From a virus, in the IMG/VR virus record IMGVR_UViG_3300028024_000015, positions 1 through 41,523 of that record: a stretch of 41,523 bases of DNA; one strand, 5' to 3'. The translations under genes and the position numbers were made by a program. Under the pieces are notes generated by a model, which searched no databases, was not told the DNA's origin, and saw nothing but the letters and a program-made list of their open reading frames with translations. Of this stretch, positions 15,183 through 26,303 are shown in pieces. How positions within the stretch are numbered: the first letter of the stretch is position 1; each line of letters begins with the position of its first letter.

Positions 15183-16781
15183 TCAGTGCGGCGCCGCGTT
15201 CATTGAAGTCGCCACATTGGCGGCCGTCGAGTTGGTGATGTTGATGTTGACGTTCTGACCTTGCCGCAACATGAGTTGGGTAATCTTCGCGATGTAGTCA
15301 CGTGTCTCGCGAGGTGCATGCGACTCCCAGTTCTGTCCGTTCTTCGCAATATCCTTGTCCAGATTGCCCATGCCCCAGTTGTAGGCAGCGAGGGCTTTGC
15401 GGACATCTCCGCCGTATCGCTTCAACAGAAAACTGTCGTACCGCCGCGCAGCATCCTGAGAATCGGCGAGATTGTTGACGTTTCCGCGCCCCCACTCCTT
15501 CCAGGTGTCGGACATGAACTGCATCGGACCCTGCGCACCCTTGGGCGACAGCAGTTTCTTGCCGCGCGCCGATTCAACCGTGTATTGCGAGTCCACAATG
15601 CCAGCGAGCGTCGGCACACCCATCGTCCCTGACTGGAACGAATCAACGGTCGCCGAAGACTGCCCGCGTAGCCAGTTGCCTAGTTGACGAAGACCGCTAG
15701 TCACGCGTCCCTCGTTAGGCTGCACAACGCCCGGATTTTCAAGAGCATCCAGCAAGCTCTTGGCTTCAGGGCCGGCAACCTTGAGCAGATTTATCGCCGC
15801 CGCTGCCGCCGCGCCACTAAGAGTTTTCAACTCCGGACTAGCTTTCGCAAGCTGACCGTTAAACTCATTCATGACCTGCGCCCAGTCAGACTTGAGCGCG
15901 GCCTTGACGTCGGACGCCTGATCGGCTGTGCCTTGATCGACCTCGTTCCGCTTGGCGTCGGCGATCTCTTTCTGCTGCGCCTTCATCCAGTCGCTATCGG
16001 TATAACTCGCGCCTGTCCGAAGCTGCTGCTGAGAAAAGAAATCGGTGAAACCATAGGCCTGTGCCATAGAGGCCGCTGGCATCCCGGACTTCTGCCAGTC
16101 ACGGTACTTACCACTCGCCGATCGAGCGAAGTCATATGTCAGTTGCTCAGCATCCTCGTTCTGGATCTGTTGCGGCGTCAGGCCAGCAGCGATCATCGCT
16201 CGCCATTTGCTGACATCGCCTTGCGCGTTTGCCACGTTGCCGAGGTCGGATGCGCCTAGGCCGAACTTTTCGAAGTTGGCAGAGAACGCCTGCGTTTGGC
16301 CGATCTTCAGGCCTAGTCCGCGAGCCTGAACATTCTGGCCCGCAAGGGTGCTCGTGGCTCCGTAGATTGCCGCTATGGTCGAACCAATGCCACTCGCACT
16401 GACCGTGCCGAGCTTGAGCAACACCGAGCCCATGCCAGAGATCGACTTGTGCATGGCCGCAGATGCCTTCTGCATCCGGGTCATCTGGATCGCGCCGTCC
16501 TTGGCCTTGGTGTTGAATTTGTCCTGCACGCCGGTTGCGCGCGCCATTGCCTTCGAAATGGCATCAGCCTGAATGGCTGCGATCATCATAAATTCTTTGG
16601 ACGACTTGGACGACTTCGAAAAGTGGTCCATGGGGTCGTTGGCATCATCAATCGCGCCAACGACCTTAGCCCAATCCTCCGGCATTCCCTCAAGCTTCTT
16701 CTGGTACTCCTGAAAGAGCCCATGAAACTCGCGGAATTTCGAGTCATCGACGTCGATCTGGATAACGCTTTTTGCAGTCAT
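15183..16781 (-). CDS. Tape measure protein with C-terminal SLT transglycosylase domain
   Basis: This 532-aa protein starts by overlapping the stop of the frameshifted chaperone gene (ATGA). It has a helical N-terminal half with a hydrophobic stretch at about 118-148 (SVLLKLGTVSASGIGSTIAAIYGATS). At about 392-500 lies a lytic transglycosylase (SLT) domain. It has the catalytic Glu at E403 in TVESARG, the GAQGPMQFM motif (415-423) and AAYNWGMGN (465-473). It sets tail length, is ejected on infection, and the SLT domain opens the murein locally. At about 0.15 nm per residue the helical portion predicts a rather short tail, well under 100 nm (inference). Confidence 0.9.
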   Translation of the reverse strand: MTAKSVIQIDVDDSKFREFHGLFQEYQKKLEGMPEDWAKVVGAIDDANDPMDHFSKSSKSSKEFMMIAAIQADAISKAMARATGVQDKFNTKAKDGAIQMTRMQKASAAMHKSISGMGSVLLKLGTVSASGIGSTIAAIYGATSTLAGQNVQARGLGLKIGQTQAFSANFEKFGLGASDLGNVANAQGDVSKWRAMIAAGLTPQQIQNEDAEQLTYDFARSASGKYRDWQKSGMPAASMAQAYGFTDFFSQQQLRTGASYTDSDWMKAQQKEIADAKRNEVDQGTADQASDVKAALKSDWAQVMNEFNGQLAKASPELKTLSGAAAAAAINLLKVAGPEAKSLLDALENPGVVQPNEGRVTSGLRQLGNWLRGQSSATVDSFQSGTMGVPTLAGIVDSQYTVESARGKKLLSPKGAQGPMQFMSDTWKEWGRGNVNNLADSQDAARRYDSFLLKRYGGDVRKALAAYNWGMGNLDKDIAKNGQNWESHAPRETRDYIAKITQLMLRQGQNVNINITNSTAANVATSMNAAPH

Positions 16782-17529
16782 TGTCGTTTCGCAGATTCGA
16801 TTAGATATCTTTGCCGGTATTCCAGCGCCGACCGGTAGGGCGTCTCATACCGCTCAAAGGTCTCGACAAACCCCTCGCCAGTGATATAGCTCAGGATGGA
16901 ATCGAGGATGCTGCCGGTCTCGTAGGTTCTGCCGGCGTCGAGTTCGGCAAGGAGGCGATGAACGCCGTAGGTGCCAATGATGTAATCGACGCACCCAGCA
17001 TGGAAGCGACTGCCCTCGCCGTCGTCTCGCGATCGGCTTTGCGGGCCATCGCTAAGTGACAGGTAAAAAAAACAATTTCCGAAAGTGCCTCCTCCCAATC
17101 TTCGGAGTCGATCTTTTCGGCAGAGATTGCGGTGTCGATGGGGAGCATGTCCCAGCCGTGTTGACCTGGGCAAAGAACCATCGTCAGGCGCCTGAGTTCC
17201 GCGAAAAGCGCGGGCGTCTCATCGTCGCGGACATTGCCGGTCTCATCGAACGAACCGCGAGCCGCCGCATCCTTCCGGCCTTCGTCGCGAAGTGTCAATG
17301 CCGCGATGCGCGGCCCCGACGACATCAGGTAATGCGATCCCCGGCTGGCTAGTGCGGACTTGGTCGCCGACAGGACGCGGTAGTTCTGTTCAAAAACTTC
17401 GCGCGAAATCGGGCTGTGGAAAGCCCAGAGCTTCACGACTTCTTCAGTCATGTCCTTGCCGTCCACTTTCTTCGTGACAGTTTCCGTCACGATCGGTAGG
17501 CAGAGGTTCCGCTTCTCATCAATTTTCAC
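16778..17529 (-). CDS. Tail assembly chaperone, -1 frameshift product (gpGT-like)
   Basis: This is the long product made by -1 frameshifting in the T8 run at 17065-17072 (frame 0 GTT TTT TTT ACC; shifted TTT TTT TAC). About 154 residues of the upstream protein are joined to ~95 residues reading YLSLSDGPQSRSRDD through DYIIGTYGVHRLLAELDAG to RQRYLIESAKRQ. The extension ends in TGA overlapping the tape-measure ATG. In lambda and most long-tailed phages this G/GT pair chaperones the tape measure while tail-tube subunits assemble. The second frame has no plausible start of its own near the junction. The frameshift is inferred from sequence and context; its efficiency is unknown. Confidence 0.85.
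16891..17529 (-). CDS. Tail assembly chaperone, unshifted product (gpG-like)
   Basis: This 212-aa frame-0 product starts at a GTG at 17529, with AAGGA 6 bp upstream. It reads MKIDEKRNLCLPIVTETVTKKVDGKDMTEEVVKLWAFHSPIS. The acidic stretch before the slip site is IDSEDWEEALSEIVFF. After the T8 run it continues TCHLAMARKADRETTARAVAS to an Ala/Pro-rich end. It lies between tail tube and tape measure, the invariant place for the G protein. The Shine-Dalgarno sits in the loop of a small hairpin (GTCAA/TTGAC) that might tune initiation. Confidence 0.82.
   Translation of the reverse strand: MKIDEKRNLCLPIVTETVTKKVDGKDMTEEVVKLWAFHSPISREVFEQNYRVLSATKSALASRGSHYLMSSGPRIAALTLRDEGRKDAAARGSFDETGNVRDDETPALFAELRRLTMVLCPGQHGWDMLPIDTAISAEKIDSEDWEEALSEIVFFTCHLAMARKADRETTARAVASMLGASITSLAPTAFIASLPNSTPAEPTRPAASSIPS
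17065..17072 (-). other. Programmed -1 ribosomal frameshift site (T8 run)
   Basis: Eight consecutive T residues on the minus strand (GTT TTT TTT ACC) allow both tRNAs to re-pair after slipping one base back. The -1 frame then stays open for 95 codons, ending exactly at the tape-measure start. The site falls in the codon region before the chaperone's final third, as in lambda G/GT. It is the longest homopolymer I notice in any late gene. Confidence 0.85.
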
Positions 17530-17558
17530 GTCAATCCTTTTTTGACCCTTAAGGAAGG

Positions 17559-17613
17559 TGCTGCGGCAGCCGGTAAGGTGCCAGCGTTTCGGGTCGCGTC
17601 CCTAGCCGCAGCA
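17559..17613 (-). ncRNA. Three-stem RNA element, copy A (after tail tube gene)
   Basis: On the minus strand, outer stem P1 is TGCTGCGGC with GCCGCAGCA (17605-17613 with 17559-17567). It encloses TA, hairpin P2 GGG(ACGCGA)CCC (17591-17602), GAAAC, and hairpin P3 GCTGG(CACCTTA)CCGGC (17569-17585). The same order of parts occurs at 22456-22511 with different P2 and P3 sequences. It lies in the 94-bp gap between the tail-tube stop and the chaperone start. A cis-acting 3' UTR element is likely. The structure is predicted by eye. Confidence 0.6.
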
Positions 17614-17623
17614 GAGCACTACA

Positions 17624-18067
17624 TCAGATGAATGACCACAGGTCGGAGTTGATGTTGAACGTTCCGCGCAACGTCAGGCGCACGACAGGATCGGTCCCGT
17701 CATACGCGCCAGGGCTGATCGTGCGGATCGCTGTATCGCTTAACGTGATCGCCGGAAAAGCTGACGTGTCGCTATGGATCGTCACATCGCCGAGAACGCC
17801 CGTAGCCTGAGCCTGAGTCAGCCAGGCAGACGACAGTGTTTGCGACCGCAGCAAACCGACCGTGATGGAGGCCATCACATACGGCTCGGGCGAGTTGACG
17901 ACGCCCGTTCCCGTTTCGACCTGGTGAACGAAATCGCCTTCGAATTCAATGTGCGCGAACGACTTGCCCATGTTCTGGGCCTGGATATTCAGCGTCGGAG
18001 TCGCAGACACAACCACATGGCATCGGACACGGTTCAGCGGTCCAGCAATGAGATAAGGATTAGCCAT
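17624..18067 (-). CDS. Tail tube protein
   Basis: This 147-aa protein (AAGGAG before the ATG) follows the sheath gene directly, the standard sheath-tube order of contractile tails. The pattern NIQAQNMGKSFAHIEFEGDFVHQVETGTGVVNSPEPYVMASITVGLLRSQ, then GDVTIHSDTSAFPAITLSDTAIRTI, is like the DUF3277-type tube proteins of myophages. All-beta character and length fit the two-sheet tube fold. Hexameric rings of it form the DNA conduit. A structured RNA element follows its stop codon. Confidence 0.8.
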   Translation of the reverse strand: MANPYLIAGPLNRVRCHVVVSATPTLNIQAQNMGKSFAHIEFEGDFVHQVETGTGVVNSPEPYVMASITVGLLRSQTLSSAWLTQAQATGVLGDVTIHSDTSAFPAITLSDTAIRTISPGAYDGTDPVVRLTLRGTFNINSDLWSFI

Positions 18068-18079
18068 TTAGTTTTCTCC

Positions 18080-19405
18080 TTAGCCCACAAACTGGATAGC
18101 GTCGAGCTGGAATGTGATGGATAGGAATCCATTCTGACCAACAACATTCGCCGAGAAGCCGTTATAGATCCCGTTGTTGTAGTCGTTCGGATTCTCCTTC
18201 GTGTACTGAGCGAACGGCACTGCATTAACTACAGCGCTCAACGCGCATCCGAACTTGACAGCCGAATCAGCGATGTTCTGCGCGACCGCCTGAAGCGTGT
18301 TGATGCCGGGCTGGCCGTACAGCAAAGGCGGGTTTGTGTTCGAGCCATTCAGGACTGCGTTTGCGAGCGCCTGTTTGACCTGGACGCGGAACCAGTCGAT
18401 GCCGTACCACCACGAAGCCTGCTCGCCATCCATGAACGTGCCCTTGAACTGCGAGGCAGTCGATACACCGCCTTCAGCGCCCGTCAGAATCAGGTTGCCG
18501 TAGTCGGTCAGGACCGTGTTGATGCTGGTCTGGTTGCCGTTCTGCGACCACGGCGTAACGCCATACACCCAGCGGAACGCCATCGGTGCGAGCGGGTTAG
18601 CCGGGCCCGGATTGTTCACCAGCCACTGATAGAAACAGGCTGCGGCCTGCTGCTCCGTACTGGCAGCAGTCGGGCTAGGCACAACCGCGAACACCGCTTT
18701 ATTCACGGCGTAGTTCGGCAGATTCGATACGGTCGTCGTGATGAAGAAATACGTTTGCCCGCCCGGGCTTTCGTAGTTCGCCGTCATCGTATTGAGTGCG
18801 GCCGACGAAGCCAGATCCCATGCGGGCGGGATCAGGTACGCGTAGAACACCTGCGGATTGCTGTTACCAGTGATCCACGTATTCAGGGCGGCGATCGACG
18901 TTGCGGCGGTGGTCGCGCTACCCAATTCAAGCACATAAACGCCGACCGTCTGACCCTGCGCGAAGAACGTCGTCGCAGACGTGTTGACGAATGCTGAGCC
19001 GGGCGGCGTGTACGTGCCCGGCGTGGTTTCGGTGCCGGGATTCGTGGCGATAGCGAACGTGAAGGTATTCGCGCCCGTCACGGTTGCAACGTAGGTGCCG
19101 TTGTATGCAGCAGGGACCGCGCCGGTAATCGTCGTGGTGAACGACTGGCCGGTTGACAGCGAAAGCGCAGCGGTCGTCGTGGCCGTGGCCGTGCCGCTGG
19201 ACCACGAGATGCCGGTCAGGGCGAGCGGCGCAGCGAGAATCGCCTGAGCCTGCGAGAGATTGCCGCAATACTGGTACGTGCCAGCGGTGAGAGTAGTGCC
19301 GCCCGCCGACACAATCGCACCACTCTGCTGAAGTTGGGAGACGGTCGGCGCGCGCGTGACGGTCGTATTGACAGTCACAATCGTCGGAGTGATCGTTGTA
19401 GCCAT
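18080..19405 (-). CDS. Tail sheath protein (DUF3383 type) with inserted beta domain
   Basis: This 441-aa protein forms the contractile outer tube that drives the tail through the envelope. Typical segments are NPQVFYAYLIPPAWDLASS and TYFFITTTVSNLPNYAVNKAVFAVV. MAFRWVYGVTPWSQNGNQTSINTVLTDYGNLI and the C-terminal FSANVVGQNGFLSITFQLDAIQFVG are also typical. These agree with the DUF3383-like sheath family. Residues about 66-135 (GQSFTTTITGAVPAAYNGTYVATVTGANTFTF) are a beta domain resembling insertions in the gpJ-like and cement proteins. No strong ribosome site precedes the ATG. Confidence 0.85.
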   Translation of the reverse strand: MATTITPTIVTVNTTVTRAPTVSQLQQSGAIVSAGGTTLTAGTYQYCGNLSQAQAILAAPLALTGISWSSGTATATTTAALSLSTGQSFTTTITGAVPAAYNGTYVATVTGANTFTFAIATNPGTETTPGTYTPPGSAFVNTSATTFFAQGQTVGVYVLELGSATTAATSIAALNTWITGNSNPQVFYAYLIPPAWDLASSAALNTMTANYESPGGQTYFFITTTVSNLPNYAVNKAVFAVVPSPTAASTEQQAAACFYQWLVNNPGPANPLAPMAFRWVYGVTPWSQNGNQTSINTVLTDYGNLILTGAEGGVSTASQFKGTFMDGEQASWWYGIDWFRVQVKQALANAVLNGSNTNPPLLYGQPGINTLQAVAQNIADSAVKFGCALSAVVNAVPFAQYTKENPNDYNNGIYNGFSANVVGQNGFLSITFQLDAIQFVG

Positions 19406-19423
19406 GTGGGCGGACTCTGGGGA

Positions 19424-19792
19424 TTAATCGAACGAGACAGCTACGACATTCGTGCCCGCCTGCACAACGATGCCTGCGAGACAAGGAAAGTTGAGGTCGA
19501 TGATCGAGCCGGCCGCCATTTGGGCCGACGTAAAAGTGGCTACGATGTTGCCAGTCGCAACACCAGCAGTCGTTGCAATGTCATTTACCGTCAATGCTGC
19601 AGCGGTGCCGCTTACTGCAACGATCTTGCAGATTCGACCGGGCGATCCCTTGACCAGAAATGTTCCGGTTTTGTTGAGGGTGTTTGCCGAACCGCAACCC
19701 GTCAGCAGATTGCCGCTGGCATCCATCTGAAGCGGGGCGCTCTTGTTCGACGTGTTGATTGCTACATTGGCCTGAAGCGGACCTTGGGGCAT
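19424..19792 (-). CDS. Small virion-type beta protein (unknown)
   Basis: This 122-aa protein has a good ribosome site (AGGAG, spaced before the ATG at 19792). It reads NVAINTSNKSAPLQMDASGNLLTGCG, then ICKIVAVSGTAAALTVNDIATTAG and VVQAGTNVVAVSFD, probably an all-beta sandwich. It resembles in style the 116-aa protein at 31468-31818 (small, Thr/Ala-rich, ending with a similar strand pattern). It lies between a neck protein and the sheath and is preceded by a terminator. It may decorate head or tail. I cannot assign a family. Confidence 0.65.
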   Translation of the reverse strand: MPQGPLQANVAINTSNKSAPLQMDASGNLLTGCGSANTLNKTGTFLVKGSPGRICKIVAVSGTAAALTVNDIATTAGVATGNIVATFTSAQMAAGSIIDLNFPCLAGIVVQAGTNVVAVSFD

Positions 19793-19804
19793 GTAAAGCT
19801 CCTG

Positions 19805-19831
19805 AAAATAAAAACCCCGCTCAAGGCGGGG
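19805..19831 (-). terminator. Rho-independent terminator, leftward
   Basis: On the minus strand, CCCCGC and GCGGGG form a 6-bp GC stem with a 5-nt loop, followed by TTTTTATTTT. It lies between the neck protein gene (19862-20803) and the small beta protein gene. It is one of several attenuating terminators inside the late operon. Confidence 0.88.
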
Positions 19832-19861
19832 TAGGTTGGTTGCAGCAGAGCGGTATGCCCG

Positions 19862-20803
19862 CTAGGTGGTAATAGAACTGAATCCGGCCGACAGGATCAG
19901 CCGGCGCGCGATCGCATCCGCCGTGGACTGGAAATACCAGGCGTCAATGTCGATCGTCTTTTTCATCGCAATCACGTTCATTTCGGATTGCGTGCGTTTC
20001 TGGTCCTTGATAGCCGGCGAGTTGCCGAAGCCGAACTCATTACCGTCCATCGAGTACTCAATCAGCGATACCAGATACTGGATTGCCTTCTGATTGTTGA
20101 AGCCATACAGCGTCAGCCGCACGTGGTCTTTCGCCAGTTGTGTGCTGGGCAGATCGTGAAGCGGAGCAGGCGATCCGGCTTCGGTCGTACCGGGCCAGCC
20201 ATACTCCGGGAAGGACGGCGCCTCTGTCATGTCGGGTTCGATGTGCGCCGTGATGTACGGAGGCACAACGTTCGCCGGCACGAGAAAGGACGGGTAGACC
20301 GGAGCGAAACTGTTCTGACCCAACCAGATCGGCAGGCTGTTCGAGACAATAGGCTCGGTCGGCAAGTCTGCCGCGCTGTCGATCAGTTGCGACGAAAGCG
20401 CCGGGTAGACGGCGTTGCCGAGGTAATGGAAAAGATTCGCCTGCTCGTAGAACGAACCGCGAGCATTGAATGCGAACCGGATTCCCTCGAACGTGCCGAT
20501 AAACAGGTCGGTCGGCGCCGCTTCGTTGAAGCTGTCGATCTGGCTTAGTGCCGTGAAGATGACGCGATTGACATTCAGCGTTTCATCTTCGTTCTGTTGC
20601 TGGTCGGTCGAGTAATGCAGCGAGCCTTGAACCGATGTTACGACGCCAGTGTTGACCCAGAACACGTAGCCGTCTGCGGGCAGCACAATCTGGCTGTACT
20701 GCGTGAATTCGACCGTCTGGTTAAGCGAGAGCGTGTTGACGCCCGCAGCCAGCGTACTCGCCAGTTGCGACTGGTTTCCAAGTGACTCGGCGATCGACGG
20801 CAT
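19862..20803 (-). CDS. Neck or head-tail structural protein (unknown family)
   Basis: This 313-aa protein starts at the ATG at 20803. A TTG one codon earlier is possible, but the upstream stop overlaps as TGATG, and GGA is placed for the ATG. SLSQNQ-like beta segments (NQTVEFTQYSQIVLPADGYVFWVNTG) are followed by a Pro-rich middle (IEPDMTEAPSFPEYGWPG) and a helix-rich end with DQKRTQSEMNVIAMKKTIDIDAWYFQSTADA. It lies between connector genes and the sheath, so it is probably a neck or tail-terminator component. I do not recognise the family. Confidence 0.6.
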   Translation of the reverse strand: MPSIAESLGNQSQLASTLAAGVNTLSLNQTVEFTQYSQIVLPADGYVFWVNTGVVTSVQGSLHYSTDQQQNEDETLNVNRVIFTALSQIDSFNEAAPTDLFIGTFEGIRFAFNARGSFYEQANLFHYLGNAVYPALSSQLIDSAADLPTEPIVSNSLPIWLGQNSFAPVYPSFLVPANVVPPYITAHIEPDMTEAPSFPEYGWPGTTEAGSPAPLHDLPSTQLAKDHVRLTLYGFNNQKAIQYLVSLIEYSMDGNEFGFGNSPAIKDQKRTQSEMNVIAMKKTIDIDAWYFQSTADAIARRLILSAGFSSITT

Positions 20804-21393
20804 CAAGACATCCAGGCTATAAAATGAGCGCTATACATGCCGGTATCCACAAATGACTCTCTGCGCGGGTTGCCCTTGGCATAGGGATGCTTCAGGCGGT
20901 GATTCACTCCCTTCATGGCTGCCTGAGTCGGCACGCCTTCGACGCCCATATGTTCGATTGCGCCGGTCGCCAGAAACTTCTTGAACATCGCCGTAATCGC
21001 GGATTCGGCAGTGGCGAACGGATTGGCGCTCGGTGCGCCGCCCATCATCAGAGTCTCGAGCGCGCCGGCCATCGACGTTTCCAGTTCCTTCGCGATGTCA
21101 GGCAAGTGGGCGAACGCGAACGTATCCATCACTCCGTACTTCGCCTCAAGGATTTCCGCGACGTCGCCGGTCGTTTGCGTGCCTGCGGTTGACTTTGGCT
21201 TGACAGGCTTGTTCGCTTTGCCCTTTCGTGGCTTTGCTACCTTTTCAGGCTTCGCCTCGTTGGCATACGGTACGTCGATAGTGCCGAGGTTCAACGTGAG
21301 ACGATGCGGTGCGTTGCGAACGAAGACCTTGGGTGCCGAATAACTGCCGCCGCCATCGGCCTGTTCTGTCGCATAGTCTCTGGCGGCTGCCAT
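20803..21393 (-). CDS. Head-completion / neck protein (unknown family)
   Basis: This 196-aa protein (AAAGGTGA before the ATG) has a Lys/Pro-rich linker at about 47-70 (KPEKVAKPRKGKANKPVKPK). A helical region follows (EILEAKYGVMDTFAFAHLPDIAKELETSMAGALETLMMGG). The C-terminus KGVNHRLKHPYAKGNPRRESFVDTGMYSAHFIAWMS resembles the 'pRxsfidTGlY' ending of minor head-tail joining proteins. Gene order supports a head-tail interface role. Its stop overlaps the start of the next gene (TGATG). Confidence 0.6.
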   Translation of the reverse strand: MAAARDYATEQADGGGSYSAPKVFVRNAPHRLTLNLGTIDVPYANEAKPEKVAKPRKGKANKPVKPKSTAGTQTTGDVAEILEAKYGVMDTFAFAHLPDIAKELETSMAGALETLMMGGAPSANPFATAESAITAMFKKFLATGAIEHMGVEGVPTQAAMKGVNHRLKHPYAKGNPRRESFVDTGMYSAHFIAWMS

Positions 21394-21402
21394 AGTTCAC
21401 CT

Positions 21403-21900
21403 TTAACTGAGGCCCCACGAAGTTCCCCATTCCGACTGCATGGCAAGCCATTGCCGCGCGTAGGGATCCTTGAGCATCTGAAGCTGGCCGATCGTGAGAC
21501 CCTTCAGGAATTCGGGAGCCAGTAGCGATTCAGATGTCGATTCGTCAGCGCTGGACTGGATTGTTCCACCGATAAATCCTGTGATATTCCACGTCTTTCG
21601 CAAGTCAGCGAAGAACGTTTGTCCCGGCTGGTCTGGGCACCAGTTGATCAGAAACGATGTCGCCAGCAGATAGACGGCGAAGCAATAAAAATCCTGCCCG
21701 ACTACCCGCAAGACCTTCAGCGTCATCTGCTCGGAATAACTGAGCGCCCACGAAAGATAGGGGCTGCTTGACGGCAGGGCAGCCGCAGGAATGCCAGCCA
21801 CGTCCATCAGGAATGTGTAGAGGTCTGTCGTGTTGGGCGTGGCCTGGGTCTGCCAGGGAGCAAGCCCACCCTCTCCAGGTAGAGGCGGAAAGGGTGGCAT
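21403..21900 (-). CDS. Head-tail connector candidate (unknown family)
   Basis: This 165-aa protein (AGGA spaced 7 bp before the ATG) starts MPPFPPLPGEGG and is helix-rich afterwards. The segment SYSEQMTLKVLRVVGQDFYCFAVYLLATSFLINW is hydrophobic enough to look like buried core helices. It ends LKDPYARQWLAMQSEWGTSWGLS. It lies two genes after the major capsid protein, where the DNA-end connector that binds the portal is usually found. The assignment rests on position and helical character only. Confidence 0.55.
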   Translation of the reverse strand: MPPFPPLPGEGGLAPWQTQATPNTTDLYTFLMDVAGIPAAALPSSSPYLSWALSYSEQMTLKVLRVVGQDFYCFAVYLLATSFLINWCPDQPGQTFFADLRKTWNITGFIGGTIQSSADESTSESLLAPEFLKGLTIGQLQMLKDPYARQWLAMQSEWGTSWGLS

Positions 21901-21902
21901 TA

Positions 21903-22400
21903 TCAGTTCCTGCGCGGGCGACCGCGCCCACGTGTTTCAACCGTGATGGTTTCGGAGAAACCGGGTTCCTTGCCGGGCGAGGCTAGCTCCTTGACCTCGA
22001 CATCGAGCGTGTTCAGACCGTTGCCCGCATCCTGAGCCACTTGCGACAGTGAATGCGTGATGACCTGAGCCACTTCCTTGCGCGTCTCCAGCCCGCGCTC
22101 CTCGAGAACCTTGTCATTGTTCTCGACGGTGTACATGATCTTGTGGACGTCGATCGGCTTGTCGAAGCTGTAGCAGATGCCAACAAAATGCTTAGTCCGG
22201 TCGATCTCGTTCACGTTGATGAGGCCATACGGCTCATGCTGCAAGATGATTGCGCTGAGTTGATCGAGCGGCGCATCGCGCCACACCATGATCTGCGAGC
22301 CGATTTCGATGTCCTGTTTCGTCAACTGCTTCTGCTCGGGAGCGTGATACAGAAACTCGTGACGTTGCTTGGTGCAATTTGCCAGATACAGCTTTGCCAT
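21903..22400 (-). CDS. Conserved-looking phage protein with AT-hook-like tail
   Basis: This 165-aa protein starts at the ATG at 22400 behind AGGGAAAATC (MAKLYLANCTKQRHEFLYHAPE). Frame-open codons further upstream run through a terminator, so are not used. It looks soluble alpha/beta: QIMVWRDAPLDQLSAIILQHEPYGLINVNEI, then KEVAQVITHSLSQVAQDAG. The last residues RGRGRPRRN contain an AT-hook core (R-G-R-P), suggesting minor-groove DNA contact. It is located between capsid and connector genes. The function is unknown. Confidence 0.6.
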   Translation of the reverse strand: MAKLYLANCTKQRHEFLYHAPEQKQLTKQDIEIGSQIMVWRDAPLDQLSAIILQHEPYGLINVNEIDRTKHFVGICYSFDKPIDVHKIMYTVENNDKVLEERGLETRKEVAQVITHSLSQVAQDAGNGLNTLDVEVKELASPGKEPGFSETITVETRGRGRPRRN

Positions 22401-22411
22401 GATTTTCCCTG

Positions 22412-22439
22412 TAAAAAAAGAAAAGGCCCGGAGGCCTTT
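22412..22439 (-). terminator. Rho-independent terminator after RNA element B
   Basis: On the minus strand, AAAGGCC(TCCG)GGCCTTT is followed by TCTTTTTTT. It is a strong 7-bp stem. Together with the terminator at 22520-22540 it brackets the three-stem RNA element, so a short discrete RNA ending here is possible. Confidence 0.88.
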
Positions 22440-22455
22440 GGTTCCCTGTATGAAG

Positions 22456-22511
22456 GCTGCGGCAACACGTACAGGGGGACGTGCTTTCAGTTGGCCCAAC
22501 CTAGCCGCAGC
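22456..22511 (-). ncRNA. Three-stem RNA element, copy B (after major capsid gene)
   Basis: On the minus strand, P1 is GCTGCGGC with GCCGCAGC (22504-22511 with 22456-22463), then TA. P2 GGTTG(GGC)CAACT (22489-22501) follows, then GAA(A), and P3 AGCACGT(CCCCCTGT)ACGTGTT with one G-U (22464-22485). The outer stem and the TA / GAAA linkers are identical to copy A at 17559-17613. The inner stems pair in both copies although their sequences differ, which is what a selected RNA structure looks like. It is flanked by two terminators. Confidence 0.65.
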
Positions 22512-22519
22512 ACAGACGT

Positions 22520-22540
22520 AAAAAAAGCGCCCTAGGCGCC
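22520..22540 (-). terminator. Terminator after the major capsid gene
   Basis: On the minus strand, GCGCC(TAG)GGCGC is followed by TTTTTTT. The stem has only 5 bp but is all G-C, and the T-run is long. It begins about 25 bp after the capsid gene stop and precedes RNA element B. Confidence 0.7.
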
Positions 22541-22565
22541 CTTGTTTTGCTTACTGCTTTCCGGC

Positions 22566-23582
22566 TTAGTACGGCGCGGAGATGATGCTGAGTGCTTCGG
22601 GTCGAACTGCCCATCCCGACGTCGCGCGAAGCTCCGACGTGATGTCGATCGCGCCGCCCGGCAGCGGGCACGGAAGCTCGCGGGGAGCGGCCATGTCCAT
22701 GTATTGCAGATTGCAGGCTGCGAGTCCCGGCGTGATCTTCGCGAACTCGTTCGTGTTGAGTTTGTTCGCGATCGGCTTCTTGACTTCAGGAACCGTGATC
22801 ATGATGACGTCCGTACCGCCAGCGCCCTTGCCAACGAGCGTGTCATCCGTCACCCAGATAATCTCGTCGCCATTCCAGCCAGCGGCGACATCAACCACGT
22901 GAGCCGGCGAGCCAGAGCCCGCGCCCGGACGCTGGAACTGCGTCAGCTGCACGATCTGATATGAGAGCATCGTCATGATGCGCTGCGTCGTGAGGATCGT
23001 GACACGCACAGGAATGCCGACCTGCATCGTGCGCACCTTGACCGCCGCAATCTGGTTCAGGACGAACTGAGCCAGTTGGCCGCTATCGTACGTGCTGACG
23101 TTCGTATTGCCGTTCGAATCGGCCGGCAGGTTGAGCGTCGTAGCGCCCTGCGTGTTCAGCATGCCTTCGCCGTTAGCCGGCGTGAAGCCCTGCAGCAGAC
23201 CGGTACGCAGTTGCTGGAAGATGCCCTGGCGCATGCCGAGACGTTGAGCCTCGACAATCGAGATGCCCCATCGGCCCATGGCAGCCGTATCGTGGTGGTC
23301 ATACTCGGCGCGCACGCGCAGCAGGTAGGTCGGCGTGCTGATCATGTCATTGGTGACCGACACGCCAGGCAACAGATTGCCCGCCGACTGACCCGCATTG
23401 ACCTTCGTGCGGATGTCCAGGTGTTTGATGTAGACCTGAAGGTCGCCATCGCTGAGGCGAACCATCGGGTCGCCACCGGCCAGAACTTCGAATGCCCCGG
23501 ATGCCTGCTGATACTGCGTCAGGATCTCGGGAACCATGTACGACGGGTTCTGGATTACATAGCTCGAGGCAACGTTAGCCAT
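22566..23582 (-). CDS. Major capsid protein (DUF2184-like, HK97-type fold)
   Basis: This 338-aa protein (AAGGAG before the ATG) has segments such as LSDGDLQVYIKHLDIRTKVNAGQSAGNLLPGVSV, DHHDTAAMGRWGISIVEAQRLGMRQGIFQQLRTGLL, and GNLNTQGATTLNLPADSNG-like loops. These match the DUF2184 group of myophage capsid proteins. The C-terminal SELRATSGWAVRPEALSIISAPY is also typical. Length and position after protease/scaffold and cement genes agree. It forms the icosahedral shell. It is followed by a terminator and a structured RNA. Confidence 0.88.
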   Translation of the reverse strand: MANVASSYVIQNPSYMVPEILTQYQQASGAFEVLAGGDPMVRLSDGDLQVYIKHLDIRTKVNAGQSAGNLLPGVSVTNDMISTPTYLLRVRAEYDHHDTAAMGRWGISIVEAQRLGMRQGIFQQLRTGLLQGFTPANGEGMLNTQGATTLNLPADSNGNTNVSTYDSGQLAQFVLNQIAAVKVRTMQVGIPVRVTILTTQRIMTMLSYQIVQLTQFQRPGAGSGSPAHVVDVAAGWNGDEIIWVTDDTLVGKGAGGTDVIMITVPEVKKPIANKLNTNEFAKITPGLAACNLQYMDMAAPRELPCPLPGGAIDITSELRATSGWAVRPEALSIISAPY

Positions 23583-24473: not shown

Positions 24474-26303
24474 TTAGTTCCCTTTCGAAATACCGACTTG
24501 CTTCATCGGAATGGTTTTGAACTCGCCCATCCAGGCGTTCGCGTCACCCACGAACGTGCGGACCAGTTGCCCGTTCGCGTCGCGCTTCTCGATTGCGCGC
24601 AGGGTGCCGGCAGGCAGATCGACCGGGTGCGATGCCGTAACGGCTGCATCGGCGTAAATCTGCTTTTCTGCGATTTCCACGGCTTCGGCGGGGAGGGCGC
24701 TGATATCGACGCTCTTCCAGTTCGCGCTGTGCTTCTTCAGGTTCGAAGCGAGACGCTTGCGGTACGACAGAAGGTCTTCGCCACGCAACGGACGCGGAGC
24801 GGAGTCGCCAAACGCGGAATACACGCTGTCCGCTTTCGCCTGGGCATCTGCCATTTCCGCATAATCGGAGTCCGACAGTTCCTTGGGCATGCGCGACTCG
24901 AGATCAGCAATTTTCTTGCGGGTCTCTTCGGCGTCGGCCTTGGCTGCGGCTTCTTCCTTCTCGCGCTTTTCTTCCTCTTCAGCATCGGCCTTCGCCTTCG
25001 CTTCGGACTCTTCCTTTTCCTTGGCTTCGGCGTCGGCCTTGGCCTTTTCTTCGGCGCTGAGCGATGCGTCTGCTTTCGCCTTCATGCTGGACTCAATCGA
25101 ATCCATGCGCTGCATGACGCTATCCATGAACTTCTGGAGCTTTTCATCAGCGTCGGCCTTAGCCTTGGCCTCACTGTCAGCCTTTGCTTTCGCTTCGGCC
25201 TCATTCGCCTCGGCGTCCGCCTTGGCCTTCAGTTCTTCTTCAGTCATTTGAATTTCCTGAACGATGTTGGTGGAAACGCCTGACGGCGGGCCGCCTTTAT
25301 CCCACACGCCCTGTATGCAGATCGCTACATGGTCGAGCAGGCTGGGTTTTCCCTCAATCAAGAGGGACTCACCATCCTCAAGCTTGATGGTGCTATTTAC
25401 TGCCTGGTCACGGAAAACCACGGTTGGAGACGTGGAGAGTTGGTGCTTCTCCATGATTTCCGCTGCCGTGGCGTCGTAAACTTTTGCGATTCCCCACACC
25501 TCTTTCTCTTCGAGTTTGAGATAGGGGATGAATATTGATCCGATCGTCCGTTCAACGAATTCTTTCGAATTGAGCGATGCTTTTTCCGGGTGCTCACAGA
25601 TGACCGTCAGGCCATTGCAGCGCGCCAGAAATTCGTCGTTCAGATAGAGATCGGGATTGCGGAAAACAAATTCTTTGTGCGCCGATCGGTAGGCAACCCC
25701 TGTGCCGGTGATACGGATGTTGAAGAGCCAGACGTTCTCGTATTTCTGCGGAGACGGCAATTCGCCGGCCACCATCGCACGAGCCAGATCAAGCTCATTC
25801 ATCTTTAGCGGGTTGACGGCATCCAGCGCGCCAGATTCGAGCGTCATCAGCGAACCCGGATGCATCGGCTCGGGATATTCTCCCGGCGTCGCCCACATCC
25901 AGTCCGTGTTTTCGTCGCAGAGCGTCGGCGTGAACTCGGTAACAGCCTTGCCAAACGTCGTGAAGGCAACGGCGCCATCGTCGGTGAACGACAACTGTCT
26001 GAGCGCGCCGACCGGCAGGTACCCGGTTTCCTCTGCGCACTCGCGGACTGCGGCTTGGTCGGGCGTCTCGCCTAATTCCTGTTTGCCACCAGGGAAGGCC
26101 CAATGGCCCGGATAGGCTCCGCCGTCGCCGCGTTTAAGCAGCAGCACCTTGCCGTTCGCAATGAAGGCGATACCAGCGGCGTCGATTTTCTCGGCGTCTG
26201 CCGCGACAAACTCTTTGCCTACCTTCTCAGGAATGCCGAGCGTGGAGTGCCCATGCGCCGCAGCTTCCATAGCGCGATGCTGCGCTTCACTTACAGAGGG
26301 CAT
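24474..26303 (-). CDS. Nudix hydrolase - prohead protease - scaffold fusion
   Basis: This 609-aa protein has four parts. Residues 1-36 ([28 protein letters not shown]) form a short motif common at the start of phage proteins. A Nudix hydrolase domain (about 42-165) carries a full Nudix box, G73-x5-E79-x7-R87-E88-x2-E91-E92-x-G94. A DUF2213-type prohead protease (about 185-345) has candidate catalytic H238 in CEHP and Ser in LSTSPTV, with LDHVAI near 323. A charged Ala/Lys/Glu coiled coil (about 353-470) is scaffold-like. Gene order fits protease plus scaffold. The Nudix part presumably cleaves a nucleoside-diphosphate compound. Whether it is removed by self-cleavage is unknown. Confidence 0.85.

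Follow-up and report, generated by a model that had tools for sequence, protein, structure and literature searches.

int-alpA RNA behind capsid and tail genes of a myovirus: a candidate intercistronic translational switch with a two-partner loop

Two copies of a three-stem RNA element lie behind structural genes in IMG/VR virus record IMGVR_UViG_3300028024_000015, a 41.5 kb myovirus in which sheath, baseplate, portal, terminase and capsid genes were detected. The stretch analysed, positions 1 to 41,523 of that record, is called the window below, and the copies are called A and B. Both are members of int-alpA RNA (Rfam RF02996), an RNA family that is already known, whose role has until now been unexplained and which Rfam types as 'Gene; sRNA' (small RNA). 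On the strength of comparative pairing evidence, we propose that int-alpA RNA is probably not a free sRNA but a cis-acting translational switch between cistrons, built around one loop that can pair with two different partners.

We hypothesize that the element is transcribed with its operon, from the gap separating a gene's stop codon from the start codon that follows it, and that its stems P1, P2 and P3 form a three-way junction. The loop of P3, L3, would then have two mutually exclusive partners: a conserved tail just after P1, with which it would form a pseudoknot and which would act as a decoy, or the Shine-Dalgarno sequence of the next gene, which a small hairpin, P4, would present in its loop. 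With L3 on the tail, the Shine-Dalgarno would be free and the next gene translatable; with L3 on the Shine-Dalgarno, the next gene would be shut. The choice might be biased by the ribosome that finishes the upstream gene, or by a protein or ligand at the conserved junction. Covariation speaks for the three-stem fold and the P4 hairpin, for L3 pairing with either partner but not with both at once, and for where the element sits; that pairing with the Shine-Dalgarno lowers translation, and that the tail-bound state is the ON state, are our inferences.

The assignment to int-alpA is clear. With RF02996, cmscan gave 51.4 bits for copy A and 46.4 bits for copy B against a gathering cut-off of 35.8 (E-values over the whole window 6.4e-8 and 1.3e-6), and the full model, positions 1-71, was aligned in both, with two non-canonical pairs marked in copy A and none in copy B. 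The copies share with the family its three stems, UA linker, GAAA and conserved tail, and thus the junction with conserved linkers and 3' tail by which RF02996 is recognised. The family was reportedly first described by Weinberg and colleagues in 2017. An earlier sequence-only reading of this DNA had located the copies on the minus strand at 17559-17613 and 22456-22511, with the same 8-bp outer stem (P1), a TA linker and GAAA between the inner stems, and had seen that the inner hairpins are unlike in sequence yet paired. Inspection of the sequence confirmed these positions and features, RNAfold also returned the three-stem fold for both copies, and the Rfam match and the copies found in relatives support a real RNA element. 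The suggested link to the phage element Mu-gpT-DE is not seen: Rfam scans return int-alpA alone, Mu-gpT-DE (RF03012) did not reach gathering level anywhere in the window, and a scan of 17400-22700 up to E 0.1 did not report it either. The observation made in that reading is therefore confirmed and its interpretation partly supported; it overlooked the int-alpA membership, the two exclusive partners of L3 and the fact that the element belongs equally to the following gene.

Because the folding z-scores are only -2.83 for copy A and -1.50 for copy B (RNAfold), energy alone is no proof of the fold, and the case for P1-P3 comes from relatives. Changes on both sides of a pair were seen in 15 of 17 pairs in alignment A3 (51 distinct rows) and in all 17 in alignment A5 (92 rows). 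The corresponding covariation scores were 0.593 and 0.657, against means of 0.207 and 0.156 after shuffling, and the score fell to 0.05-0.10 when partner columns were slid by 1-3. Standard base pairs made up 94.4% and 93.5% of the pairs in the alignments, which were fitted to a model of this fold and are hence biased towards its structure. Further copies with compensatory changes are thus present in related phages; their absence was what the sequence-only reading had taken as grounds for abandoning the element. The UA at the P1-P2 junction is conserved in 141 of 150 elements, which is compatible with a binding site and proof of none.

The second layer of evidence concerns L3, which is complementary to the conserved tail after P1 (CCCUGU/ACAGGG, CCUUA/UAAGG, CCUUG/CAAGG) and a second time to the region around the following gene's Shine-Dalgarno. 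Neither pairing is visible in the cmscan consensus line, which cannot display pseudoknots, and because A-type and B-type tails align in different registers, we assessed the pseudoknot by permutation instead of counting alignment columns. Elements were drawn from the phage-locus matches and from int-alpA matches in sampled genomes, and P1, P3, L3, the tail and the start codon were parsed by script; 178 matches gave 163 unique and 160 parsed elements, of which 150 had a start codon 20-110 nucleotides (nt) after P1. Taking one element per downstream-protein cluster left 78 clusters. The best L3 helix with an element's own partner was then compared with those formed with the partners of other elements, in 1000 permutations.

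Both pairings track the element's own sequence. For L3 and tail the own value was -10.27 against a permuted -7.64 (z -12.1), for L3 and Shine-Dalgarno -10.29 against -8.43 (z -8.4), and for the P4 arms around the Shine-Dalgarno -8.08 against -6.12 (z -9.1); in each case none of the 1000 permutations was as good. Control pairings of L3 with coding or upstream windows gave z of -0.1 to -0.6 in this first set, and reversed L3 with the tail -1.1. A later set, unused in forming the idea, comprised 60 new regions with 61 matches, of which 54 were usable (one was unparsed, three had no start, two were too far away and one had been seen before) and fell into 44 clusters. It gave z of -10.1 for the tail, -8.2 for the Shine-Dalgarno and -6.8 for P4, with controls between -1.9 and +1.3 (over both sets, L3 with coding or upstream windows stayed between -1.6 and +1.3), and contributed a new word pair, UCCGC with GCGGA twice (locus L262). 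Covarying pairing with the Shine-Dalgarno of the adjacent gene, as expected of a translational cis-regulatory leader, is thus found in both sets. When the sets were merged (204 elements) and thinned by protein homology and leader identity of at least 75%, 47 clusters remained, with z of -10.3 for the tail and -7.6 for the Shine-Dalgarno. A thinning by chained identity had merged nearly all elements (133 of 149, then 146 of 149, with z of -1.7 and -1.5 in the latter) and was replaced by this corrected one.

The two pairings also exclude one another on the page. They have at least 3 nt of L3 in common in 142 of 150 elements, and in 48 of 54 in the later set. An exact word of at least 5 nt complementary to L3 occurs in both the tail and the Shine-Dalgarno region of 40 of the 78 representatives, against a permuted mean of 5.2 and maximum of 11. 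Mean stacking energies are alike (-10.60 for L3 with tail, -10.47 for L3 with Shine-Dalgarno); equal strengths are expected of a two-state switch, yet are no proof of one. In copy B the two partners are an identical heptamer, UACAGGG, with energies of -11.8 and -11.9 kcal/mol. Both partners are kept even by loops that are not anti-Shine-Dalgarno in character, such as UUGAACA in L006 (tail GUUCGA, leader UGUUCAAGG) and CGUUAC in L237, where GUAACGG occurs twice.

Several observations weigh against a translational switch. Reversed L3 still pairs somewhat with the Shine-Dalgarno window (z -3.3, -1.9 and -2.4 in the first, later and merged sets); generic anti-Shine-Dalgarno composition accounts for part, not most, of the signal at that site. 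The harshest thinning, at 65% leader identity and with 12 clusters, lowers z to -3.5 and -3.0, and the permutation tests model descent incompletely. In copy A the pairing of L3 with the Shine-Dalgarno is 4 bp only and weak (-3.8 kcal/mol, against -7.2 with the tail). In copy B a terminator-like hairpin separates the tail from the Shine-Dalgarno, an arrangement shared by 9 of 150 elements, and the Shine-Dalgarno would lie beyond a possible transcript end. Finally, among 54 relatives without the element at the capsid boundary, 34 have another arrangement or none (21 of them without a hairpin found) and the next gene is still present, mostly unchanged. Because the gene persists in these relatives, the element is dispensable for gene order.

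Of these 54 relatives, 13 have a terminator-like hairpin in the gap between the capsid gene and the next gene and 20 have a different hairpin there; in the other 21 none was found by a search limited to loops of up to 9 nt, so that 'none' includes hairpins with larger loops. The element would then be one of several solutions at this boundary, which is compatible with tuning the output of the next gene and also with transcriptional attenuation. More generally, int-alpA could act on the transcription or stability of the mRNA, as a 3' stabiliser of the abundant upstream message, as a partial terminator, or as an anti-terminating RNA of the kind known from the put sites of phage HK022, which let polymerase pass terminators. 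Its place directly after capsid, tube and integrase genes would suit such a role, as would the other hairpins and terminators at the same boundary in element-free relatives, the pyrimidine-rich sequence after P1 (at least 5 T per 8-nt window in 35 of 98 general and 4 of 52 phage copies) and the terminator-like hairpins that adjoin copy B. However, a role of this kind needs neither the match of L3 to the Shine-Dalgarno nor the covariation of P4, and downstream terminators are rare (9 of 150). We regard it as an unlikely explanation when taken by itself; it could be true together with a translational switch.

The Rfam type invites a different view, in which the element is a trans-acting sRNA, freed from the mRNA or bracketed by terminators, whose CCU-rich L3 would bind the Shine-Dalgarno sites of other mRNAs. 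L3 is indeed anti-Shine-Dalgarno-like in most copies, and copy B has terminator-like hairpins on both sides, which had led the sequence-only reading to suggest a discrete small RNA. The bracket itself was recovered on the minus strand by our own script (the pattern tool found the second hairpin only), but it is no trait of the family, being present in 6 of 150 relatives, and no sigma-70-like promoter was found in the 601 nt around copy A or copy B. L3, moreover, matches the Shine-Dalgarno of the gene directly behind it more closely than those of other genes, and the element sits at fixed short distances between stop and start codons. Since L3 follows its own gene and the bracketing is not conserved, we dropped the free sRNA as first choice, for copy B as for the family, and consider it improbable; the evidence favours an element that acts in cis.

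Position supports such a cis-acting switch more widely. Among the 150 elements, an open reading frame (ORF) of at least 60 amino acids (aa) on the same strand ends no more than 100 nt upstream in 135, with a median of 12 nt from stop codon to P1, and in the 78-cluster analysis the median distance from P1 to the start codon was 33 nt (middle half 31-37 nt). Because the gap after the stop codon is short and varies little, the ribosome that terminates there is an attractive candidate trigger, one that would not apply where terminators intervene, as in copy B. The upstream gene is an integrase in 30 of 150 cases; others are capsid, tube, toxin-antitoxin and helix-turn-helix (HTH) protein genes.

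The downstream genes are varied, and another idea is that of a site acting at the DNA level, such as a recombination or insertion site that places variable genes behind integrase or structural genes. The 30 integrase-following copies precede 23 different downstream protein clusters, and the 68 downstream proteins scanned (from 78 clusters, ten short or doubtful ORFs being excluded) matched only 6 Pfam families, with one member each, and 3 in NCBIfam; copies also accompany inserted homing endonucleases. Against this stand the orientation of the matches in related phage loci, all 63 of which lie on the sense strand, the tight spacing to the start codon, and the pairings of L3 with the Shine-Dalgarno and within P4, which make sense only in RNA upstream of a start codon. 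A DNA site therefore seems to us very improbable. PADLOC, run on the same 68 proteins in search of defence cargo, found only homing endonucleases and two marginal matches. Several otherwise unrelated downstream proteins (for example at L161, L172, L185 and L221) open with a similar leucine-rich sequence, in which 'EAA...L' is followed by a brief strand-like segment; this may be a DNA-binding domain that Pfam lacks.

The related phage loci came from an IMG/VR capsid search, which gave 80 loci, and from an alignment of 23 capsids, which led to 13 loci in bacterial genomes. The Rfam model matched in 23 of 50 records and in 10 of 39 genomes or records (9 above cut-off). A second model, built from 23 copies that match it by construction, gave 63 matches at E up to 0.5 in 37 of 97 sources (1.75 Mb). 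Of these, 33 lie between a capsid gene and a phrog_6737-type gene, mostly starting about 8-12 nt past the capsid stop, the remaining capsid-site copies beginning after a terminator-like hairpin or an extra ORF; 24 are at a second (tube) site, about 5-6 kb further on; and 6 precede genes matching homing or HNH endonuclease PHROGs (L006, L022, L037, L038, L044 and L063). Model searches gave no int-alpA match in the enterobacterial relatives and three named phages (L003-L005). In three overlapping samples of genomes, int-alpA was found in 40 of 369, 52 of 398 and 60 of 250.

At L022 (15881-16932), L037 (15922-17043) and L044 (7837-8882), the tube gene is followed by an inserted GIY-YIG homing endonuclease gene that carries an int-alpA copy, and only then by the int-alpA copy of the gene beyond, which retains its own besides that of the endonuclease. 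int-alpA RNA seems to travel with the inserted endonuclease gene at these loci. Multiple copies also occur elsewhere: L230 (G468:C33) holds three within 2.5 kb, two of which share a longer repeat with altered tails and look decayed, and L231 (1911-3707) has two tandem copies before paralogous ORFs, the first without an open frame found, and then a short AlpA-like protein. The order at L231 (element, 338-aa ORF, short protein) fits the family name if the short protein is AlpA, which we take it to be from its motif by eye.

In the window the neighbours of the element are capsid, tube and following structural genes rather than integrase and alpA (Table 1). Copy B starts 54 nt past the stop of the capsid gene, in line with the sequence-only reading. 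The tail sheath gene is followed by an ORF, and copy A starts 11 nt past its stop; that this ORF encodes the tail tube, as the same reading held, is a suggestion from gene order, its PHROG having no function, and a PDB search with phmmer for the identity of the 147-aa protein was uninformative (best E 0.3). The position of the 212-aa gene behind copy A suggests that its product is a tail assembly chaperone. At 16778-17529 (minus strand), overlapping ORFs in different frames lie between the tube-position gene and that of a long lytic tail protein, an arrangement that suggests a frameshifted tail assembly chaperone. Elsewhere in the structural region, 24474-26303 (minus strand) encodes a protein with a Nudix-like N-terminal part fused to the large conserved phage family phrog_6216.

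Table 1. Features of the two int-alpA loci in the window
Feature	Positions	Strand	Basis or remark
Copy A int-alpA RNA, P1 to tail	17546..17612	-	cmscan 51.4 bits, E 6.4e-8
Copy A P1 5' arm	17605..17612	-	one extra pair possible, 17613 with 17559
Copy A P1 3' arm	17560..17567	-	RNAfold three-stem fold
Copy A L3 loop CACCUUA	17574..17580	-	CCUUA complementary to UAAGG of tail
Copy A tail UAAGGG, proposed pseudoknot partner of L3	17546..17551	-	duplex -7.2 kcal/mol
Copy A P4 hairpin GUCAA/UUGAC, loop holding Shine-Dalgarno AAAAGGA	17530..17546	-	RNAfold
Gene downstream of copy A, 212 aa, GTG start, phrog_11810	16891..17529	-	PHROG match
Gene upstream of copy A, 147 aa, phrog_6566	17624..18067	-	tail tube by gene order alone
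Copy B int-alpA RNA, P1 to tail	22444..22511	-	cmscan 46.4 bits, E 1.3e-6
Copy B P1 5' arm	22504..22511	-	RNAfold three-stem fold
Copy B P1 3' arm	22456..22463	-	RNAfold three-stem fold
Copy B L3 loop CCCCCUGU	22471..22478	-	RNAfold three-stem fold
Copy B tail UACAGGG, proposed pseudoknot partner of L3	22444..22450	-	duplex -11.8 kcal/mol
Copy B second UACAGGG, Shine-Dalgarno of next gene, alternative partner of L3	22407..22413	-	duplex -11.9 kcal/mol
Terminator-like hairpin and U tract between copy B tail and Shine-Dalgarno	22422..22439	-	pattern tool
Terminator-like hairpin between capsid stop and copy B	22520..22541	-	direct reading and script; not reported by pattern tool on minus strand
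Gene downstream of copy B, 165 aa, phrog_6737	21903..22400	-	PHROG match
Major capsid protein gene upstream of copy B	22566..23582	-	phrog_6671, phrog_264 major head protein

Several known RNAs resemble int-alpA in part. Pseudoknotted translational riboswitches such as preQ1-II combine a compact junction with a pseudoknot near the Shine-Dalgarno and an alternative pairing, as int-alpA appears to do; int-alpA differs in lying between operon genes, in having its Shine-Dalgarno duplicated by a decoy tail and in having no known ligand. Flavivirus exonuclease-resistant RNAs are likewise three-way junctions and have their third loop paired to bases on the 3' side of the first stem, but they have no counterpart to the pairing with the Shine-Dalgarno. 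The hammerhead ribozyme, also a three-way junction with GAAA between two stems, was tried as a candidate and rejected: its core box, CUGANGA, is absent from all 150 elements. Hammerhead ribozymes, too, occur near integrase genes in prophages (PMC3088659). A functional likeness is found in phage genes such as T4 e, soc and 49 and the homing endonuclease genes for I-TevI, Aeh1 mobE and T4 segB, free-standing ones among them, whose ribosome-binding sites are hidden by RNA structure in a longer transcript (PMC3014915). Those leaders are simple hairpins, whereas int-alpA is a three-way junction with one loop and two exclusive partners, placed before many unrelated genes.

A literature search on alpA, integrase, Rfam and pseudoknot, with the founding paper, supplements and the Rfam structure line outside its scope, returned no account of an int-alpA mechanism and no earlier report of a two-partner loop; we claim novelty for the loop only in the sense that the searches made found no earlier report. 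In PMC12370729, int-alpA is named only in a list of predicted genome sRNAs. PMC7657543 states that the database structures of 314 RNAs missed supported pairs, and the int-alpA pseudoknot may already be listed among these in its supplement.

In this phage, a switch of the kind proposed would set how much product the genes after capsid and tube yield in proportion to these two abundant proteins, and if our hypothesis is right, it helps phages set protein ratios at capsid and tail boundaries. A bolder generalisation, which we offer as a speculative possibility with the odds against it, is that int-alpA is a general sensor-switch of mobile elements: the junction would sense a signal, be it a metabolite, a protein of phage or host, or the terminating ribosome, and L3, by moving between decoy and Shine-Dalgarno, would gate whichever gene stands after a resident one (integrase, capsid, tube, toxin-antitoxin or another), with homing endonuclease genes among those gated. 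If this were true, int-alpA would be a signal-responsive RNA class devoted to the accessory genes of phages and islands. Should the translational switch itself hold, a common RNA controls the translation of variable, mostly unnamed genes placed behind the core genes of mobile elements, and the genes directly after each copy would be where to look.

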